From a virus, in IMG/VR virus record IMGVR_UViG_3300001749_000003, positions 1 to 27,929 of that record: 27,929 nt of DNA; one strand, 5' to 3'. Made by a program: the position numbers and the translations under genes. This document shows positions 2,156 to 27,091 of the stretch, piece by piece. Position 1 is the stretch's first letter, and the number at the start of each line of letters is the position of its first letter. The notes below the pieces were generated by a model. The model was given only the letters and a program-made list of their open reading frames with translations. It was not told the DNA's origin and ran no database searches.

Positions 2156-3045
2156 ATGAAGAGTGATGTAAGTCAATCTGATGTAGTTATTTCCAAACAA
2201 TCTAATATGGCTACACTACAAGATGGCCTTACCAACCTAGCAACTGGCCTTGGTGGTACTCAAGATAAAGCTACCTTCAATCAGTGGAATCACTCTGGAC
2301 GTAATTTTGATCATGTTACCCTATCAGCACGCTATCGTGAATGCTGGTTAAGCCAGAAAGTTTGTAAGATAGTCCCACAAGATATGACTAGGGAGTGGCG
2401 CAAGTTTAACTCTAAGTTAGCTCAAGAGGCCGACAAAGAATTTGAAGTTGATAGCTTGTTCAGGGAAGCTTACAAGTGGGCTAGGTTGTACGGTACTAGT
2501 TTTATTGTACTAGATATTGATGATGGAAGAACTACAGATAAACCTGTAAATTGGAAGAGGTTAAAAGAAGGATGTTTAAGATCCATGCATGTTGTGGATA
2601 GAACTAGGATAGTAACCTTGGGTGAGATTGATCAGAAACCTATGAGTGTTACATTCGGTATGCCTGACCATTACCAATTCGTAAACACTACTACACCTAT
2701 ACATAAAGACAGGCTTATTCGTTTTGAAGGTACGGAATTGCCAATATATGAACGACAAAGAAACTTATGGTATAGTGATAGTGTATTAATACCACTTACT
2801 CAGCAAATGGATAACTTCTATGTTGCTAGTTCTGCTGCAGCTCAGATGGTATCAGAAGCAAACACCGATGTTATTAGAATACCAGATCTACAAACTATTT
2901 TAGAAAGTGATTCTGGTACTGCTGCTATGATAGCCCGCTTTCAAGGATGGAAACAAATTAAGGGTGTTTATGGTGTTTCAATACTAGATCAAGAGGAAGA
3001 GTTTGACCAGAAGAAGATACAACTTTCTGGATTGAAGGACTTGAT
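2156..3045 (+). CDS. Portal protein (DUF1073 family), exon 1
   Basis: First exon of the portal, the dodecameric ring at the capsid vertex through which DNA is packaged and ejected. The ATG follows AAGGAG at a good distance. The segment LSARYRECWLSQKVCKIVPQDMTREW near residue 60 and ARFQGWKQIKGVYGVSILDQEEEFDQKK near residue 265 match the DUF1073 portal pattern. The frame continues unspliced to a stop at 3103, but the last about 19 codons do not fit the family, while the missing family sequence resumes at 3870. I place the exon end after 3045, in phase 2 (codon AT|T), because GACTTGAT pairs with a downstream GTCAAGT as a group I P1 helix. Exon 1 plus exon 2 gives 1320 bases, 439 residues, reading LSGLKDLI-WEYLKIVAASV across the junction. 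Unspliced RNA would give a truncated, non-functional portal. Confidence 0.88.
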
Positions 3046-3869
3046 AAATAACTTGTCAAGTATAAACCCTTTTAAATCAGTGGAACCCCTAATATTAAGT
3101 TAAGGGCAATACTGAGCTATGGTGAATATCTTAGGATTAGTAACCGAAGTGCAACGACTAAATGTAACTCTCAAGGGAGCTTACAAGAGAGGCCAAGTGG
3201 CTTCGTAATTTAGGGGCATACTCAAGGTAGTATGTAAGATATAGTCTAGGCTGCATAGTAATATGTAGAAGAGTGTAAAGATGAATTATATAACAGAGTA
3301 TCGTAGCAAGAAATATTATGTGGGTAGTGTCCACGCAACAAACGATCATGGCCCACTTAAAGTTTTAGGCAGGCTTGATGATCCAAAATGTGACTTATAC
3401 GCAGTAGAATTCTTAAGTACTGGATTTAAAACTAAAGCCAGAACAAGTGGCATTGTAAAAGGCATGGTGAAAGATTATCATGTACCAGTAGTATTCAACA
3501 GGGGATTTCTAGGTACTGGTAAGCACACAACAAAGAAGAATGGAAAGACAACAAGAGAATACAAAGCATGGACAGGAATGTTCTATCGTTGTTACTCTAG
3601 TGACCCTCAACACAAAAACTATGTAAGAAGGGGTATTACTGTTGATCAAAGATGGCACAACTTTCAAATATTTTGTGATGATATAGAAAAGTTGGAAGGC
3701 TATGAAGCTTGGAAGAATGGGTTTAACATGGCACTTGACAAAGATATAAAATTTAATGGTACATATAGCAACACTAGTTGTATGTTTATAACCAAGGCCG
3801 AAAACACAAAAGAGGCCAATAATAGAAGACACTCTAGTAAGAACTAACGAATCTTGCTTAATAACACCG
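3046..3869 (+). ncRNA. Group I intron interrupting the portal gene
   Basis: About 824 bases separate two halves of one portal reading frame. Seen directly: ACTTGAT at the end of exon 1 can pair with GTCAAGT at 3055-3061, putting a U.G pair at the 5' splice site as in P1 of group I introns. GCAACGACTA at 3151-3160 and AAGATATAGTCT at 3236-3247 match the conserved P7 elements of T4-td-like introns, and GACTA/TAGTC pair exactly. The proposed intron ends in G at 3869. The endonuclease gene lies 3' of P7, in a peripheral loop of the P9 region. Splicing joins the frames exactly. The edges could be off by a few bases; the 3' site was chosen to give six residues between DLI and VAA as I recall for this family. 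Confidence 0.85.
3281..3847 (+). CDS. Intron-encoded HNH-type homing endonuclease
   Basis: A 188-residue basic protein encoded wholly inside the portal intron. The C-terminal half contains YKAWTGMFYRCYSS, then RRGITVDQRWHNFQIFCDDIE, then NGTYSNTSCMFITKAENTKEAN, the order seen in HNH-family endonucleases of phage introns (W..M..RCY, GI.V..RW..F..F, Y...NC.W.....N). The usual central His-Asn-His residues are not all obvious: DKDIKFNGTYSNTSC has the Asn-rich part but a clear first His is lacking, so it may be a variant or a weakened enzyme. Such proteins cut intronless alleles near the insertion site and drive intron spread by recombination; the expected target is the portal gene around the exon junction. 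It stops 22 bases before the 3' splice site. A clear ribosome site is not visible (GAAGAGTG lies upstream of the ATG). Confidence 0.8.
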   Translation: MNYITEYRSKKYYVGSVHATNDHGPLKVLGRLDDPKCDLYAVEFLSTGFKTKARTSGIVKGMVKDYHVPVVFNRGFLGTGKHTTKKNGKTTREYKAWTGMFYRCYSSDPQHKNYVRRGITVDQRWHNFQIFCDDIEKLEGYEAWKNGFNMALDKDIKFNGTYSNTSCMFITKAENTKEANNRRHSSKN

Positions 3870-11679: not shown

Positions 11680-14600
11680 ATGAGTGACTACGATGATTAT
11701 GAAGGTTTAGAAGTATATGATAGCCCTGATGGTGGAAACATTGATGGGGAACTTGATGAAGCAGCACTATGGCTACAAGGTCAAGGTGGTGTGCTTGATG
11801 AAGATAACGACAGCCCCATATCTAGAAATATACTAGAAGGGGCAATGACTGCTGCAGACTTACAACTAGGTAGAATAAGTCACGTAGAACCAAGGATTCA
11901 AGCTGGTATTAAAGCCCTACTAAGTGGCCAAGATATTAGTGGTGTGTCTGCAGTAGATAAAGCTGCAGCCATACAACAGTTTACTAGTGAGATAGGAATA
12001 GCACCAGAAGTGTTTGCTAGTAGGATCAAGCTAGATCCATCAGTGCAAGTACCAAACTACTCTGGTGATATTAAGACAGTACTTTCCATGTTGCAAAATA
12101 CTTCTGGAGAGTACATGGTTAGGGGCCCAGGAAAAACACTACCTGGGAACTATATAGATAGTGAGAAGAGGTTAGAAGCTAATGATGATCTAACTACTGC
12201 AATTGGTTATATAACTGAGTTATCTGATTTATATATTGATGGCAGAACAAGAGGATCAAGTGTAGAACAAGCAAGAAGGAGTGCTGTTGAGGCTGGATTA
12301 GTATCTAGGCTTAGAGATGGTGTTTTCTATGATGGATCTAAGGACATATTACCACTTCCAAACGAGGTTGGTATATATGGAGAAAACACTAGAGGTGTAA
12401 CTGGTTTAGTTAGGACACAAGGAATATATGGATCAATTCAAGGTACTGCTGATGATAGGCTGTCTTCTGGCAGGTTTGATGAATACTACCAAACAAGTAA
12501 TGCTGCTGGAGAGAAGACTAGGTTTGTCCGTGATAGTAATGGAGGAAAAGTTTTTAAAAATGACGTTTCCAAGGAAGACAGAACTAGAATACTCAAAGCT
12601 ACACCATCTTTAGCCAACTCATTGTTTGCTAAACCTAAGCCAGCAAGAGGTACTAGGTTTACTCAGGAAGAAAGAGATAAACATAGTAGAGATCAAAAGT
12701 ATCTTCTTGATCAAGCTCAATACAAAGCTGAGTTTGCTAGAAAGGTACTAAGGCAACAATTCCCTACAACTAGGGATGAAAGTGCAGGCCAAATAAACAT
12801 GGCTGGCTTTGATAGACCAGTTGGCGAACAAGAAGAAATGCAAAACCTTAGAAATGAGGCTGCAATACTTGGGTTAGATTGGTCTGCAGGAGTTGATCTT
12901 GATAACGTAGGTGGTGTATCAACTAGCACACTATCAACTGAAGATGCCATGAAGGTGGGTATTTTCTCTTCAGGTGGTGTAGGATCTGACAAGTCTGGTG
13001 GGTTTGGCTATACTCAAATGTCAGATGTAGATAGGTTTATTGAAGAAGAGTTAAACCCAGAAGTGGATAATGTTGTGTCATTAAATCCTAAACAGGGAAC
13101 TCCAGAATGGTTGGCTCAACGTAGGGGTAAAATAACAGCATCAGTTATAAAAGGTATATTATTAGAAGGTGGTGTTGATGACATAGCACTACAACTAGCC
13201 AAAGAAAGGTTAGGCACTGCTGAACCATTTGAAGGTAATGCTGATACTAGGGAAGGCAACAAAGGAGAAGATAAAGTTGCTGCATCTTTCCTAGCTGGTG
13301 TTGGTAAGAACTTCACCATGGGAGAGGCACATTTTGTGTCTGGTGATCCAAAGGGATTGAAAGGTTTTGGTGTATCACCAGACGGCTGGCTAATAAACGG
13401 TGAAGGTGAAAGTGAGGGGCTAGCAGAGTTTAAACTTCTAAGTGGCAGTAGTATGAAGACTGCTGTGAAAGACTACACTAACCAGATGCAACTACAAATG
13501 GCTGTGACTGGTGAAAAGCAAGTACACTTTTATGCGCTAGACAAACATTCGGGTGAATACTTACATGAGGTAGTTAAAGAGGATGTTGACCTACAAGACA
13601 AGATAATTTCTGCTGGCAGGCAAGCAATTGATAAAGCCTCAAAGCTAGATCACATAGGAGTTCAAGCTTTGAGCAAAGATATAGAAGCCAAGAAGATGGG
13701 CCCAAGAGCACCATCAAGATCTATGACAAAAGGCCAAAATAAGTCTTTTGAGGTAACTAAGGGTGTTGTGGAGAATGTAACAGCATTTGATCCTGCAGTT
13801 GCTAATGTTGATACAGAGTTAGGTGCCGCATCTAAAACTGTTATGGCACAGAAGCTAGAAAAGTTAGATCAAGCTGAAAGACTTAAGAATGCTGTAGATA
13901 GTGCACAAGATGTTTCTGGTATGAGCAAGATCGAATCTGAACAATCAGAAACTAGACGAATGAAAGCCCAAGCAATATTTAGCAATAATAATAGAAGAGC
14001 TGGGTTTGAAGGTAATCAGCCAGATAGTGAGATGGCTAAGTACTACGAAGAAGCACAGAAGAAAGCTGCAGATGCAACTAATGAAGCTACCAACTCAGTA
14101 TCAGAGTTTGGAAAAGCAACCATGAAAGCTGTCGGTATATTATCAGAGCTTGGTGGTATGGTTATGTCTGGCAATAAGTCTGGTATGGATGAAGTACGTT
14201 TTGCTAATGAAGTTGGAATGGATGTTAGAAATGTCCGTGGTATGCGTGAATCCTTAGAGAAAGGTATGCTTAGTGACACAGGTATTAACAAAGTTATAAG
14301 TAGAGCTGGAAGTCTGGTAAACACTTTTAATAGTGAACTAGGTTTTGCTTCAGAGTACACCAACATACTAGAAGCAAGAGGTGTATCTAACTTAGAATCA
14401 GTACGTAGTATGGATATACCTAGACCTTCTGAATTGAAAGATATGAACCCACAACAAATGGTAAGCATGGTTGCTGGACTAATGGAAGGCAAAACACAAG
14501 AAGAGAAAGTCCAGATTGGTAGAATATTCGGCATGGCAGAGTTGGCTTCAAATACTGCCTCACCAATGGCAATAGATGCTGCTTATGATCTATCTATTAA

Positions 14601-15261
14601 TCAACAGAACTTAGAGGCCACTAGAGCAGGTATTGTAGATGTTGAGCAAGTTAAGAGACAAGCACTAGAACAAACTGGTGAGATAGGTTCAGTAGGCGGA
14701 TCAATTGCGACTGGTTCTGTTGTAGCTGGTGCTATTGCTGGTTCTGCAACTATGGGTTTTGTTGGTGTTAAGGCTGCCCAAATGTTATCAAGAGCTGCAC
14801 CAAGTGCTAATGCTGCTAAGATGGCCAAAAGTATGTCTGTACTTGGTAAATCTACACCACTTGCAATGGCTGCTGGCTTGGCACCTTTGGCAATAAGAGG
14901 ATTATCTGGTGTTAAAGATGATGGTACTGTTGGTGATTCTGCATTAGACATTATGGAGTTTGCTGGCTATGGAGCTGCTTTAGGATCAGTAATTCCTGGG
15001 GCTGGCACTTTGTTAGGTGCTGGTTTTGGAACTGCTTTAGGTATTGGTAATGAGGTAATGGAATACTTTGAAAGTGATCCGTTGCCAGATCCTAACATAG
15101 GTGAAATGAGGCAGACACATGGCCCTAAAGATAAAGAGAAGAATATAGTGAATGTAGAAGTTACTAATGAAATATCAAGAGATCTTATTAGAACTACTAC
15201 AGATGTTAATGGTGATCTAAATGTAGATGAAGAGTCTGGAATAGGAACTGGAGATAGCTGA
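11680..15261 (+). CDS. Tape measure protein with embedded YqaJ-like nuclease domain
   Basis: 1193 residues, located between chaperone and hub genes; this place, the long charged helical stretches, the hydrophobic C-terminal segments (about 1004-1035 and 1094-1125) and the terminal NIVNVEVTNEISRDLIRTTTD block identify a tape measure. It would set a tail of roughly 180 nm at 0.15 nm per residue if all of it counted. Residues about 465-660 form a separate domain of the YqaJ / lambda-exonuclease nuclease family: KQGTPEWLAQRRGKITAS (472 on), REGNKGEDKVA, GFGVSPDGW with D568, AEFK with E583 and K585, and NQMQLQMAVTG with Q602-Q606. The D...ExK plus QxxLQ pattern is intact, so the domain may be active. 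The N-terminal 465 residues match nothing I know. Most Arg codons are AGA/AGG. The tape measure enters the cell with DNA, so a nuclease could be delivered early. ATG follows GGAG. Confidence 0.85.
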   Translation: MSDYDDYEGLEVYDSPDGGNIDGELDEAALWLQGQGGVLDEDNDSPISRNILEGAMTAADLQLGRISHVEPRIQAGIKALLSGQDISGVSAVDKAAAIQQFTSEIGIAPEVFASRIKLDPSVQVPNYSGDIKTVLSMLQNTSGEYMVRGPGKTLPGNYIDSEKRLEANDDLTTAIGYITELSDLYIDGRTRGSSVEQARRSAVEAGLVSRLRDGVFYDGSKDILPLPNEVGIYGENTRGVTGLVRTQGIYGSIQGTADDRLSSGRFDEYYQTSNAAGEKTRFVRDSNGGKVFKNDVSKEDRTRILKATPSLANSLFAKPKPARGTRFTQEERDKHSRDQKYLLDQAQYKAEFARKVLRQQFPTTRDESAGQINMAGFDRPVGEQEEMQNLRNEAAILGLDWSAGVDLDNVGGVSTSTLSTEDAMKVGIFSSGGVGSDKSGGFGYTQMSDVDRFIEEELNPEVDNVVSLNPKQGTPEWLAQRRGKITASVIKGILLEGGVDDIALQLAKERLGTAEPFEGNADTREGNKGEDKVAASFLAGVGKNFTMGEAHFVSGDPKGLKGFGVSPDGWLINGEGESEGLAEFKLLSGSSMKTAVKDYTNQMQLQMAVTGEKQVHFYALDKHSGEYLHEVVKEDVDLQDKIISAGRQAIDKASKLDHIGVQALSKDIEAKKMGPRAPSRSMTKGQNKSFEVTKGVVENVTAFDPAVANVDTELGAASKTVMAQKLEKLDQAERLKNAVDSAQDVSGMSKIESEQSETRRMKAQAIFSNNNRRAGFEGNQPDSEMAKYYEEAQKKAADATNEATNSVSEFGKATMKAVGILSELGGMVMSGNKSGMDEVRFANEVGMDVRNVRGMRESLEKGMLSDTGINKVISRAGSLVNTFNSELGFASEYTNILEARGVSNLESVRSMDIPRPSELKDMNPQQMVSMVAGLMEGKTQEEKVQIGRIFGMAELASNTASPMAIDAAYDLSINQQNLEATRAGIVDVEQVKRQALEQTGEIGSVGGSIATGSVVAGAIAGSATMGFVGVKAAQMLSRAAPSANAAKMAKSMSVLGKSTPLAMAAGLAPLAIRGLSGVKDDGTVGDSALDIMEFAGYGAALGSVIPGAGTLLGAGFGTALGIGNEVMEYFESDPLPDPNIGEMRQTHGPKDKEKNIVNVEVTNEISRDLIRTTTDVNGDLNVDEESGIGTGDS

Positions 15262-23328: not shown

Positions 23329-23360
23329 AAACATCTTAGTTGGATTGTATAGTATATAAA

Positions 23361-23388
23361 TTGATCTAGGTAGTTGTGTAGTTATAAA
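23361..23388 (+). promoter_or_regulatory. Sigma70-like promoter in repeat unit 1
   Basis: TTGATC (23361-23366), 16 bases, TATAAA (23383-23388). Compared with TTGACA-17-TATAAT this has four and five matches. The same arrangement occurs in units 3 and 4, but unit 2 has lost 8 bases of the spacer. Host RNA polymerase could start early transcription of the phage polymerase here. AT-rich DNA makes chance matches common, but the threefold conservation of spacing is suggestive. Confidence 0.45.
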
Positions 23389-23465
23389 ATATTATATATG
23401 TTGGATAGTATATAAATTGATCTAGGTAGTTATAAATATTATATAATATATATATAGTACATAAA

Positions 23466-23493
23466 TTGATCTAGGTAGTTGTGTAGTTATAAA
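23466..23493 (+). promoter_or_regulatory. Sigma70-like promoter in repeat unit 3
   Basis: TTGATC (23466-23471), 16 bases, TATAAA (23488-23493), identical to the site in unit 1. About 200 bases ahead of the polymerase ATG. Confidence 0.42.
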
Positions 23494-23521
23494 ATATTAT
23501 ATATGTTGGATAGTATATAAA

Positions 23522-23549
23522 TTGATCTAAGTAGTTGTGTAGCTATAAA
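23522..23549 (+). promoter_or_regulatory. Sigma70-like promoter in repeat unit 4
   Basis: TTGATC (23522-23527), 16 bases, TATAAA (23544-23549). The closest of the three sites to the polymerase gene, about 140 bases upstream of its ATG, leaving a G-rich leader. Confidence 0.42.
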
Positions 23550-23690
23550 ATATTATATATGTTGGATGTGCGTGGGGTGCTTAGGGATGTTGGTGTGTTA
23601 AGGAGTCTCTTTGCCTTTTCGATTATATGTCGAGTTGGTTTGTGATAACTTGAACACTAATGTAATTAACCTAAACTAAAAGGATCTATC

Positions 23691-25643
23691 ATGCCTAATG
23701 TAATTGCTAACTTAATCAAATCTTCCACAACAACTGAGGTAACAACAATGTCCAACACAACTAAGCAAGAAGCAATCAACTTAAATAACATCAACAAGTC
23801 AGCTTTAGTATCAACAATGGCTGCTGAACTGTTTATTCAAGGCTTAAGTGAAAGAGTAAGTATGATAACTGCTGTTGCATTTATTGGTGCAATTGATTAT
23901 CTTGATGATTATGAAGACTTTTCAGAAGCTTTTATAGAAGGTATGGAAATCACCTCACTAGAGATAGTCGGGCTAAATGAACAGCCAGAGTGTGACATAG
24001 ATGGTGAGTTGGTAGAGAGTATACTTCAAGCTGCCAAGTACCTAGATGGTGAGTCAGTTGGGCCTAGGTTGTATGAGTTATGTGAACTTAGGTCTGAGGC
24101 TTATGAACCAACTACAGGTGAGATAGTTAGAAGGTTTGGCTATTCTAAAGTTAAACACTCTGAGTTGTTTATCGAAGCTATCCATGCTCTTGAAGCAACT
24201 GAGTATACAGTTGATATAGATATATTATCAATTGCATTGCAAGTACAAGGTAAGCTTGGCAAGGATAACGATGAAGAGTCTTATGTTATTAGTGGTTGTC
24301 AAAACATGAATCCTGAGTTGGCTTACAAGTCAGAGTTCAAGGGTGACAGAAGAGGAAGAATGTATCAAGCTGCTTGTCATGGGCCTAATGGTCAATCTTC
24401 TGATAGATCAAGAGCACTTATGAATCTTCAAGGTGTTCCAACTGACTACGATGTTGTTACAGTTAAGAAGCATATCTTAGCTGAGATAGAAGACATGGTA
24501 GCTTCTCCAAAGGATAGTGCCAAGGAGTTAAGAGAGTTGGGTGATGTAGAGTTTATCATCAAGCACCTAGATAGTGATGTAGTTAAGAAGCCTTGGAGTT
24601 TTGTTAAGGCTGCCAAGATCATGCGTGAGTTACAAGCAGGTAACAAGCCCTACATTGGTATGGCTGTAGGTTTAGATGCTAAATGTTCTGGGCCTCAGTT
24701 AGGTGCCTTAATGGTTGGTGATCAACAGATTGCTGCTGCTTGTGGTTTCACCATGACTGAGTTAGATGATGCCTATCATTTGTCTTTGGTAGAACTAGCT
24801 AGGGCTGGCTTTACTAACATAACCAGAAATGGTATCAAGAAGGCATACATGGGTGTGTTCTATGGTCAAGGTTGGGCTGCATTTACTGACCTTGAGGAGA
24901 TAGGTTCTGAGCTAGCTAACTCACTTTATGGTGAGGGAATGCCAGCTAATGATGATACAGCTAAGATGTTCCACAAAGCCTTAGTTGCATCATTTGGTCA
25001 GAAGATGATAGCTGTACGTAACTTGTTTAAGTCATACGCCAAAACTACTAAAGGTCGCACTTTACATAGTATGCCTGATGGGTTTGAAGTAGCCATGAAC
25101 TACAAAGTCAAGACTAACATCTTGGGTGAGATCATGGAGTATGACACAGAACAATACGATGTAAGACTACGTAATAATGCTGAGTCTTATAAGTTTATCA
25201 ACTTCCAACTTAAGACCTTGGATGTGCATGAGGGTGACTTTGCTAGAAATGGGTTTGTTAATATGATCCAAGCTACAGATGCACTTATAGCTAGGTTGAT
25301 AGTAGTTCACCTTAAGAGATTAGGTGCTAAGCATATCATATCAGTACATGACTGCTTTCGAGTTAATGTTACTGAGATGCACTTGCTTGAAGAAGCTATC
25401 AAGTTATCATACATGGATCTATTTGGATCTGAGTACAATAACTCAACTAGTGACTTACCACTAGGAACTGACATACTTGGTTTGTACTTTAAAGGAGCCA
25501 ACAAGCAGTTAATAGAAGGAGAAGAAGAAGTTATGGTTAGTCAGTTCTTCAGCTCTGGTAAAAGAAGACTACGTAAGATCAATAGTGTAAAAGTTGTAGA
25601 TCTTATTAGTAGCCTAGGTGATACTTATTACTTCGCTAAGTAG
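23691..25643 (+). CDS. T7-like single-subunit DNA-directed RNA polymerase
   Basis: 650 residues. All core motifs of the T7 RNA polymerase family are present: FKGDRRGRMYQ with D219-R223 (DxxGR motif), GLDAKCSGPQ with catalytic D329 (motif A), RNGIKKAYMGVFYG with R379, K383, Y391 and G392 at exactly the T7 spacing (R627, K631, Y639, G640; motif B), and SVHDCFRV with H553 and catalytic D554 (motif C). About 170 residues separate motifs B and C, enough for a promoter-specificity loop. It is shorter than T7 polymerase (883 residues): the part before DxxGR is about 200 residues shorter, so the N-terminal promoter-melting domain is reduced or different. ATG follows AAAAGGAT. Upstream repeats carry sigma70-like sites; downstream lie five candidate promoters for the enzyme itself. 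The C terminus ends YYFAK, loosely like the aromatic T7 foot. Such enzymes are best known from podoviruses. Confidence 0.9.
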   Translation: MPNVIANLIKSSTTTEVTTMSNTTKQEAINLNNINKSALVSTMAAELFIQGLSERVSMITAVAFIGAIDYLDDYEDFSEAFIEGMEITSLEIVGLNEQPECDIDGELVESILQAAKYLDGESVGPRLYELCELRSEAYEPTTGEIVRRFGYSKVKHSELFIEAIHALEATEYTVDIDILSIALQVQGKLGKDNDEESYVISGCQNMNPELAYKSEFKGDRRGRMYQAACHGPNGQSSDRSRALMNLQGVPTDYDVVTVKKHILAEIEDMVASPKDSAKELRELGDVEFIIKHLDSDVVKKPWSFVKAAKIMRELQAGNKPYIGMAVGLDAKCSGPQLGALMVGDQQIAAACGFTMTELDDAYHLSLVELARAGFTNITRNGIKKAYMGVFYGQGWAAFTDLEEIGSELANSLYGEGMPANDDTAKMFHKALVASFGQKMIAVRNLFKSYAKTTKGRTLHSMPDGFEVAMNYKVKTNILGEIMEYDTEQYDVRLRNNAESYKFINFQLKTLDVHEGDFARNGFVNMIQATDALIARLIVVHLKRLGAKHIISVHDCFRVNVTEMHLLEEAIKLSYMDLFGSEYNNSTSDLPLGTDILGLYFKGANKQLIEGEEEVMVSQFFSSGKRRLRKINSVKVVDLISSLGDTYYFAK

Positions 25644-25658
25644 TAGTTAGTATCTAGT

Positions 25659-25684
25659 TAGCCAGCTATTAAGTTAGCTGGCTA
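25659..25684 (+). terminator. Hairpin after the RNA polymerase gene
   Basis: TAGCCAGCT (25659-25667) and AGCTGGCTA (25676-25684) form a perfect 9-bp stem with an 8-base loop ATTAAGTT, sixteen bases after the stop codon. It is followed by CTATCCCTCTT, which has only short T runs, so termination may be partial. It overlaps a TATCTAGTTAG element like those in the repeat block further on. Confidence 0.65.
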
Positions 25685-25847
25685 CTATCCCTCTTAAGTA
25701 TATAAAGCCACAAGTCTGTAGTGTTCCAGAGACTTAAGGAACTAGTAAGAAGAGTAAGTGGTGACTATAACTAAGATCAAGACCACAACAGGTTCAAGAG
25801 CATAATCGTTCGTACCTCACTTCAGTTCAAAAGATAAGATCAAGACC

Positions 25848-25870
25848 AATATAGATCCTTTCTAGGTAGA
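25848..25870 (+). promoter_or_regulatory. Candidate phage RNA polymerase promoter P1
   Basis: Core TATAGATCCTTTCTAGGTAG; start expected at the first G of CTAGG (25865). Ends like T7-class promoters (…CTATAGGGAGA). First of five copies, in the first unit of a 63-bp duplication. Confidence 0.6.
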
Positions 25871-25910
25871 GTATGTAGAAATACATAACACCAAAGATAA
25901 GATCAAGACC

Positions 25911-25933
25911 AATATAGATCCTTTCTAGGCAGA
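25911..25933 (+). promoter_or_regulatory. Candidate phage RNA polymerase promoter P2
   Basis: Core TATAGATCCTTTCTAGGCAG, start expected at 25928. Differs from P1 by one base within the core; it lies in the second unit of the duplication. Confidence 0.6.
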
Positions 25934-25993
25934 CTATGTAGAAATGCATAATGCCAGAGAAGGGTCAGAGGTATAGACCACAAAGGTCAAATC

Positions 25994-26016
25994 CATTTAG
26001 ATCTTCTCTAGGGAGA
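25994..26016 (+). promoter_or_regulatory. Candidate phage RNA polymerase promoter P3
   Basis: Core TTTAGATCTTCTCTAGGGAG, start expected at 26011. The end CTAGGGAGA is the closest of the set to the T7/K11 start CTATAGGGAGA, and ATTTAG at its 5' end recalls SP6 and K11 promoters. The surrounding sequence is not part of the 63-bp duplication, so the motif is conserved independently. Confidence 0.62.
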
Positions 26017-26071
26017 TTAGTTAAGGTAATAGACAAATAGCAGCCACTTGATTGTGAGCTTGATGGTTATT

Positions 26072-26094
26072 ACTTTGACTTCATTCTAGGGAGG
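26072..26094 (+). promoter_or_regulatory. Candidate phage RNA polymerase promoter P4
   Basis: Core TTTGACTTCATTCTAGGGAG, start expected at 26089. It keeps TTCTAGGGAG but departs from TAGATCC upstream, so it is the weakest copy. Like P3 it is followed by TAGTTAAG. Confidence 0.45.
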
Positions 26095-26159
26095 GTAGTT
26101 AAGATCTAGGTCTGTTGGAATATTAGTGTATAGACCTAAGGTAGTTAGTTACAAGTTAG

Positions 26160-26203
26160 TATCTAGTTAGTATCTAGTTAGTATCTAGTTAGTATCTAGT
26201 TAA
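26160..26203. repeat. Four 11-bp TATCTAGTTAG repeats
   Basis: Three exact copies (26160-26170, 26171-26181, 26182-26192) and a fourth ending TTAA (26193-26203). The same 11-mer also occurs at 25651-25661, next to the polymerase stop. The 11-bp period places each copy on about the same helix face. Confidence 0.9.
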
Positions 26204-26343
26204 TAAGTTATGCCAGACAGGAATCGCTAGTGTAGGATTAGAGCTTGGCTACTTACTTAATAGTATCAATAGGTTATGATAGTCTTCGACAGTATCTAGA
26301 TAGTGGCTAGATAGTGGCTGGCTAATAACTTGACGTGGGAGAG

Positions 26344-26492
26344 GGCTAGTTAGTGTTGGGTTAGGCTAGTTAGTGGCTAGTTAGTGTTGGGTTAGTGGCT
26401 AGTTAGTGGCTAGTTAGTGACTAGTTAGAGTTGGATTAGGCTAGTTAGTGGGCGATGGGTCTAGTTAGTGTTGAGGTATGGGCTAGTTAGTA
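26344..26492. repeat. Helically phased GGCTAGTTAGTG array
   Basis: Exact copies start at 26344, 26364, 26375, 26397, 26408 and 26439; one- or two-base variants start at 26419, 26459 and 26481. Distances are 20, 11, 22, 11, 11, 20, 20 and 22, all close to whole helical turns (137 bp over 13 turns, 10.5 bp each). The array looks like a set of protein-binding sites on one face of DNA. Confidence 0.85.
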
Positions 26493-26511
26493 GACTGGAG
26501 GGTGTAGGTTG

Positions 26512-26638
26512 TTAGGCACCCGAGACACTTACTTAGTCAATATCAAGTACTTACTTAGTCAATATCAAGTACTTACTTAGTCAATATCAAGTACTTACTT
26601 AGTCAATATCAAGTACTTACTTAGGCACCCGAGACACT
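26512..26638. repeat. Four 22-bp iterons between 18-bp direct repeats
   Basis: TTAGGCACCCGAGACACT occurs exactly at 26512-26529 and 26621-26638. Between them are TACTTAG and four identical 22-bp units (26537-26558, 26559-26580, 26581-26602, 26603-26624), each containing TCAATATC, the palindrome AAGTACTT and ACTTAG. The unit length equals two helical turns, as in iterons of replication origins. No spacers are present, so it is not CRISPR. A variant (TACTTACTTAATAGTATCAATA) lies near 26250. Confidence 0.9.
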
Positions 26639-26961
26639 AGTTACGCACCTATTAAGCTATCATAGTATATAGATCTACCTAGCTTTAATTAGCAACTATT
26701 TAGCTTTAAGTAGTCTTATCAGTAACTTAGTAAGTTATTAGTAAGCTACGAGTTAGTCCTAAGTTAGACTGAGTTAGATATTTAGACTTAGTAGTATATT
26801 AGTAAGTTGGCTTTAAGCTAGATGCCAGTAATCATAGTTATACCTAGTTAGACCTAGTTAGAGATCTTTCTTTCTGGTCTAATAGTTATAGAGCTAAGTG
26901 TTATCAGCTAATAATTGTTAGTTGATACTAGTTAGCTCTAAGTAGCACTGAGTAGAAAACC

Positions 26962-26984
26962 GTTATAGATCCTTTCTAGGCACA
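26962..26984 (+). promoter_or_regulatory. Candidate phage RNA polymerase promoter P5
   Basis: Core TATAGATCCTTTCTAGGCAC, start expected at 26979, about 110 bases before the next gene (27092). Identical to P1/P2 over 16 bases in unrelated surroundings almost 900 bases away, which argues for a functional site and places it as the promoter of the downstream small genes. Confidence 0.65.
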
Positions 26985-27091
26985 ATAGGTTAGGGATGGA
27001 TCACCTAAGAAACAAACGATCCACTTTAAATCATTTAACAATTTTAATAACTGGTAAGCAGAAGCTGCCATAACTTATAGAGAGAAATACT

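Follow-up and report, generated by a model that had tools for sequence, protein, structure and literature searches.

The question raised by this locus is why a single short word should be packed, in one orientation and at intervals of about one or two helical turns, into a non-coding strip of a phage genome. The strip probably helps to cut and package the viral DNA, or to start copying it, since it sits where the physical genome end of related phages lies. The phage, its arrays and their counterparts in relatives are described below, followed by the readings that compete to explain them.

The phage and its genome

The window, the whole 27,929-nt stretch analysed, comes from a viral record of 56,534 bp (IMGVR_UViG_3300001749_000003) whose ends overlap by 2688 bp, which yields a closed unit genome of 53,846 bp. 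Both limits of the overlap fall within genes, and its six mismatches are all (6/6) confined to the last 84 bp; it is therefore more likely an assembly overlap, and its reading as a real terminal repeat (DTR) was rejected. The metagenome record was closed at a place unrelated to the strip, and the DTR end of the phage itself is one that we infer. The phage has a contractile tail, and its called genes, all on the + strand, include those for portal, capsid, sheath and baseplate proteins, a primase/helicase, a PolA-type DNA polymerase and a ribonucleotide reductase. No similarity of the window to known phages was found at the DNA level. The capsid protein is 44–47% identical to those of Chaseviridae, and the single-subunit RNA polymerase (ssRNAP) about 27% (tblastn). 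Members of the Chaseviridae have contractile tails, genomes of 52–56 kb, a single-subunit RNA polymerase and terminal repeats of about 3 kb (PMC12842549). The tail sheath, the ssRNAP and the 53,846-bp unit genome all agree with this description, and on these sequence features the phage is treated here as a Chaseviridae-like myovirus of 53.85 kb.

The T7-type ssRNAP gene that adjoins the strip (23691..25643, + strand) encodes 650 aa, matches phrog_414 (5.8e-29), and was further identified by tblastn, motifs and alignment, with motif C (VHDCF) present. A second, different ssRNAP gene lies between the ligase and terminase genes (G000:C1:47897-49741; L004:2897-4741) and sets the phage apart at least from Erwinia phage Y2, as judged by annotation; the same pair of genes is found in the relatives G005 and G013. 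No homologues of the RNAP were found in cellular genome contigs. The non-coding strip of 1448 bp (25644..27091, + strand; ORF map and synteny) runs from the end of the first ssRNAP gene to the start of the early genes (27092); no wider gap separates ORFs of 60 aa or more anywhere in the genome.

Oriented and phased words in the strip

The initial annotation had counted about 17 CTAG words in positions 26101-26520, where few would be expected by chance, and the recount gave exactly 17. Base composition predicts about 1.5 in a stretch of this length and dinucleotide shuffling of the window about 2.4, and no other 420-bp segment of the genome contains more than 8. The words start at 26106, 26163, 26174, 26185, 26196, 26227, 26296, 26307, 26346, 26366, 26377, 26399, 26410, 26421, 26441, 26461 and 26483. 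The accompanying argument that CTAG is a rare word has to be given up, as the word occurs at its expected frequency in this phage (genome-wide 291 copies vs 298 expected by a maximal-order Markov estimate; 163 in the window vs 158 in shuffles), and rarity is therefore no argument. The word that matters is the longer CTAGTTAG(T), which occurs 16 times forward and never in reverse in the strip, compared with two forward and three reverse copies in the other 52 kb. The same bias marks CTAGTT (18 forward, 1 reverse) and GTTAG (28 forward, none in reverse) in the window.

The words are organised in several arrays, all on the + strand. The first array (26142..26202) comprises 5.5 copies of an 11-bp unit (TAGTTAGTATC) as delimited by Tandem Repeats Finder, with CTAG spacings of 11, 11 and 11 bp, and is followed at 26291..26318 by two variant units (CTAGATAGTGG) placed 11 bp apart. 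In the second array (26343..26491; Tandem Repeats Finder, 26344-26491), GGCTAGTTAGT units alternate with GTTGGGTTAGT-like variants along a lattice whose steps are 11 or 9 bp, and the + strand is rich in G and T, with a GC skew of about +0.69. Beyond it lies a perfect 22-bp array, 4.5 copies of ACTTACTTAGTCAATATCAAGT at 26527-26624, flanked by two copies of TTAGGCACCCGAGACACT (26512-26529 and 26621-26638); the whole element (26512..26638) begins where the genome shows its largest fall in GC skew (26516). An inverted repeat with 26-nt arms, no spacer and 81% complementarity is also present in the strip, at 26889-26940.

Spacings of 11, 20 and 22 bp between CTAGTTAG units, and a mean of 10.5 bp per turn over 137 bp, had likewise been proposed, and both hold: the second array covers 137 bp in 13 lattice steps, or 10.54 bp per step, and in the phase test the nine CTAGs within it keep to a 10.5-bp period (R = 0.90, P ~3e-4 vs random placement). 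Between the first array and the second the phase is not kept: with all 16 words pooled, R is 0.32 at 10.5 bp and 0.71 at 10.25 bp. The autocorrelation analysis that had been suggested places the genome maximum of lag-11 self-similarity (z 6.2–6.8) in two windows overlapping the strip, with the next-best window at 3.0, and the phased array is confined to the strip rather than being repeated in coding DNA. The next-highest lag-11 windows (G000:C1:49233-51404) overlap a 444-bp non-coding gap (49742-50185) behind the second ssRNAP gene.

Candidate promoters

Four tandem candidate promoters, recognised as a repeated element with equivalents in relatives, are predicted at about +205 to +450 past the RNAP stop, all on the + strand: promoter 1 (..ATAGATCCTTTCTA|GGTAGA) at 25848..25870 with a putative +1 at 25865, promoter 2 (..TTTCTA|GGCAGA) at 25911..25933, promoter 3 (..CTCTA|GGGAGA) at 25994..26016, and promoter 4 (..TTCTA|GGGAGG) at 26072..26094, about 70 bp upstream of the first CTAGTTAG. 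A fifth candidate (26962..26984, + strand) lies upstream of the first early gene and just downstream of the inverted repeat. In several relatives, between one and six promoter-like elements sharing the core TCTA|GG(T/G)AGA lie about 200–450 bp past the RNAP stop, and tandem TCTA|GGKAGA candidates are found in L067, L068, L070, L071, L073 and L079. The core is close to the T7 start-site sequence CTATAGGGAGA. The TCTA|GG pattern detected no such elements at that place in some relatives, for example L076, and a search of viral contigs for the exact promoter word gave only four isolated single matches. In four chaseviruses, TCCTATTATAA(A/T)G sits 91–107 bp upstream of the right DTR end. According to the ICTV profile, the promoter sequences of the Chaseviridae ssRNAP have not been identified (PMC12842549); the tandem TCTAGGKAGA elements are direct candidates for promoters of polymerases of this type, as possibly is TCCTATTATAAAGGCCC in true chaseviruses.

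Resemblance between TCTAGTTAGTA and TCTAGGTAGAGTA led us to consider the array as a promoter decoy. That idea is weakened by the relative G002, which keeps CTAGTT words though its own promoter-like element is CTATAGG.

Counterparts in relatives

The relatives compared are viral contigs encoding related ssRNAPs (about 36–62% identical over the aligned parts), and they keep the post-RNAP strip wherever the contig extends far enough. Their shared layout runs from the ssRNAP gene through usually tandem T7-like promoter elements and directly oriented repeats to the early genes. The sequence of the repeats varies between lineages, while the period is often one or two helical turns (10–12 or 21–22 bp): 11 bp in L076, 11/22 and 10 bp in L075, 21 bp in L073 and L077, 21–22 bp in L074, 10–12 bp in G002, and 11 and 22 bp in the window. 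When the 10–11-bp signal was tested with windows of equal length from the same contigs as controls, the combined P was about 4e-4 with a conservative floor, or 1.5e-3 without the window; the periodicity did not rise above these controls in L066, L071, L077, L078 and Y2. An exact search for CTAGTTAGTNNCTAGTTAGT in viral contigs gave no match. CTAGTTAG itself is enriched at the strip only in G002 (five copies, against none in 17.5 kb of other G002 sequence), whose strip has no other recognised similarity to that of the phage, and other lineages carry other words. The proposal that a protein binds along one face of the DNA is supported in part. The comparison favours functional helical spacing, because in several relatives the same place is occupied by unrelated repeats that also have a period of one or two turns; CTAG as such is not the conserved element.

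Among true chaseviruses, all six examined whose record gives a DTR (6/6) have the RNAP gene within it and its right end within the post-RNAP strip, of which the strip described here is the positional counterpart by synteny with both chaseviruses and viral-contig relatives. The repeats measure 2608 bp in Y2, 2665 bp in PM1 and 3373 bp in ZPAH14, as exact terminal duplications, and 3120 bp in 4HA13, 3202 bp in Myduc and 3234 bp in Mangalitsa, as annotated with PhageTerm. Each of the 11 chasevirus strips examined (11/11) contains 7–14 copies of one word, nearly all forward: GCATGT in Cleopatravirinae (forward/reverse 14/0, 14/1, 10/0, 10/0, 9/0 and 9/0), GTATGA (7/0 each) in four phages of the Nefertitivirinae/Shantouvirus side, and GTGTGA (8/0) in Spp001. 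The words flank the right DTR end. Where that end is known in Cleopatravirinae (five phages), the first right-hand word lies at +67 to +102, and in ZPAH14 the words straddle the end; agreement among the Cleopatravirinae is partly due to common descent. The chasevirus strips resemble that of the phage in gene order, in a non-coding length of about 1.0–1.5 kb and in having oriented words. They differ in that the phage word is CTAGTTAG in tight tandem, whereas the GCATGT or GTATGA words of true chaseviruses form looser clusters, those of GCATGT not being cleanly phased at 10.5 bp. GCATGT also occurs within the 21-bp array of L073, which links the helical-array and chasevirus-word styles. We know of no published description of the oriented chasevirus words, and searches of the accessible literature turned up none. 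In Proteus phage Myduc, a 218-bp tandem duplication (L087, 2767-3202) ends exactly at the annotated right DTR end.

Placing the terminal repeat

GC skew drops most strongly at two places in the genome, one on either side of the RNAP gene. One lies at the end of the second array (26516) and the other 2868 bp away at 23648, just past four 56-bp repeats (..GATCTAGGTAGTTGTGTAGTT..; 23345..23567, + strand; Tandem Repeats Finder) that carry CTAGGTAGTT and lie upstream of the RNAP gene. The same pair of drops occurs in G001 (2894 bp apart) and G002 (3047 bp apart), at distances near the known DTR lengths. In Y2 and 4HA13, the left DTR end is 17–18 bp from one of the strongest skew drops; the signal at the left end of PM1 is less clear (top 0.5% of positions). 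At the right ends the drop is weak (top 3% in 4HA13, top 2% in PM1) or missing (Y2), so that the skew flip as an exact marker of the right end was discarded. The left boundary of the phage DTR, predicted in the region of the 56-bp repeats, is accordingly better founded than the right one. One end of a DTR of about 2.5–3 kb is placed by inference within the strip at 26.05–26.55 kb, where the position of the words (about 26.1–26.2 kb) and the skew flip (26.52 kb) disagree. Arrays of 11 and 20 bp also occur upstream of the RNAP gene in G002 and G005, near the predicted left DTR boundary (L055 1-421; L057 1-657).

A proposed terminal-repeat boundary array and its rivals

In phage T7, the short-repeat array known as SRL adjoins a terminal repeat of 160 bp. 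The word CCTAAAG occurs 11 times forward and never in reverse in the first 420 bp of T7, with many copies 13 bp apart and most of them just right of the terminal repeat. To our knowledge, the role of the T7 short-repeat arrays is not settled. Like the T7 SRL and SRR arrays, the phage arrays consist of many copies of a 7–9-nt word in one orientation, adjacent to ssRNAP promoters (candidate ones in the phage) and spaced near one helical turn (12–13 bp in T7, mostly 11 and 9 bp in the phage); the T7 arrays lie at the boundary of the terminal repeat and the phage array at a predicted boundary. The T7 word is not that of the phage, the T7 terminal repeat is far shorter than the roughly 3 kb of the chasevirus family, and the phage is a myovirus with its promoters in a tandem cluster and its DTR end placed indirectly. 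Since the word differs between lineages, the phage array is an analogue of SRL/SRR and not a member by sequence. Our leading reading, held tentatively and at a little short of an even chance, is that the CTAGTTAG arrays are an SRL-like array at the DTR boundary that would be transcribed by the phage polymerase and bind a maturation or packaging protein; as part of that same tentative reading, they would correspond to the CCTAAAG arrays in T7 and, in chaseviruses, to the oriented GCATGT/GTATGA words.

Under such a mechanism, the phage polymerase would transcribe the arrays from the upstream promoters, and a phage protein, the terminase small subunit or another maturation or replication factor, would bind the phased words on one face and bend the DNA. 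Protein and passing transcription together would mark the concatemer junction at which the terminal repeat is cut, duplicated and packaged. No terminase small subunit gene was identified. Ring-shaped small terminases that select bent pac DNA provide a precedent (PMC4737164). The DNA binding of small terminases is usually weak and sequence-independent in vitro, and specific binding is hard to demonstrate (PMC9611059).

The initiator, partition and silencing proteins named in the initial annotation as possible ligands gained no specific support. The first genes past the strip have no PHROG or Pfam match, though one of them may encode a phage-specific initiator or ParB-type protein. The anatomy points first to a DTR boundary beside candidate promoters for the phage polymerase, with an origin possible. 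The main rival is in fact a transcription-primed replication origin, on account of the position of the T7 origin, the G-rich arrays and the iteron-like perfect 22-bp array. Transcripts from the promoters would enter the arrays, whose presumed non-template strand is G-rich, and an R-loop would prime the leading strand through the PolA-type polymerase, the phased and 22-bp repeats serving as iterons for an initiator. The primary origin of T7 likewise lies directly behind the RNAP gene and has two tandem promoters, as the phage has candidate ones by sequence; genes for a primase/helicase and a DNA polymerase are present in the phage, and the strong positive skew of the arrays (+0.69) ends in an abrupt flip, a pattern shared by G001 and G002. 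Several points weigh on the other side: no initiator gene was recognised, helical spacing is not a requirement of R-loop priming, an array skew of this strength is not seen in the strips of true chaseviruses, and we know of no phased repeat array or long G-rich strand at the T7 primary origin. As an account of the arrays, an origin is rather unlikely, albeit a serious candidate, and the DTR-boundary and origin roles could share the strip.

Neutral tandem repeats, produced by replication slippage in an unconstrained non-coding strip and 11 bp long by chance, would explain why the units within an array are nearly identical, and therefore recent, why sequences differ by lineage and why several relatives lack significant periodicity. 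They would leave unexplained that the CTAGTTAG word is common to two otherwise dissimilar strips (that of the phage and that of G002), that orientation is strict and words are conserved across Chaseviridae genera, that one- and two-turn periods recur at the same place, and that the combined control test of 10–11-bp periodicity gives the low probabilities stated above; slippage alone is thus quite improbable. Least likely of the readings considered is a regulatory array, in which a phage or host protein would bind the words cooperatively and control read-through into the early genes as a silencer or roadblock, or in which the transcript would bind something. Its location between the promoter cluster and the early genes suits that role, and the near-total single orientation of the words is something that a transcript would conserve too; against this, the RNA of 26100-26530 is not predicted to fold with significant stability (z -1.6), no Rfam family was found in the strip, and a silencer would not account for the position of the words at the DTR end in chaseviruses.

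The DTR-boundary reading may extend beyond this phage. It is conceivable, though we would sooner doubt than assert it, that one cis element is common to the whole of the Chaseviridae and their uncultured relatives. Tandem ssRNAP promoters would lead into a fast-evolving, strictly oriented and often phased array at the right DTR boundary, and a phage protein co-evolving with the array would recognise it and link transcription with duplication of the terminal repeat and with packaging. Should this be true, the promoter elements would rank among the earliest proposals for this family of polymerases. How DTRs are cut and duplicated in long-terminal-repeat phages is poorly understood outside T7, and the oriented words (GCATGT-word or CTAGTTAGT DNA) offer a defined target for pull-down, footprinting and deletion in culturable chaseviruses.

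Other features of the genome

Outside the strip, a group I intron (Rfam match) lies beside the portal gene at 3015-3268 of the window, with an HNH endonuclease gene next to it (3281-3847). The terminase large-subunit gene also seems split (G000:C1:50640-53380) into a 69-aa start and a main part from 52112, with an HNH endonuclease gene (51059-51967) between them; no Rfam intron match was found there. In the tail-gene region (window 11680-15261), a 1193-aa protein has a match to RecE-like/Cas4-type exonucleases at about residues 465–656.
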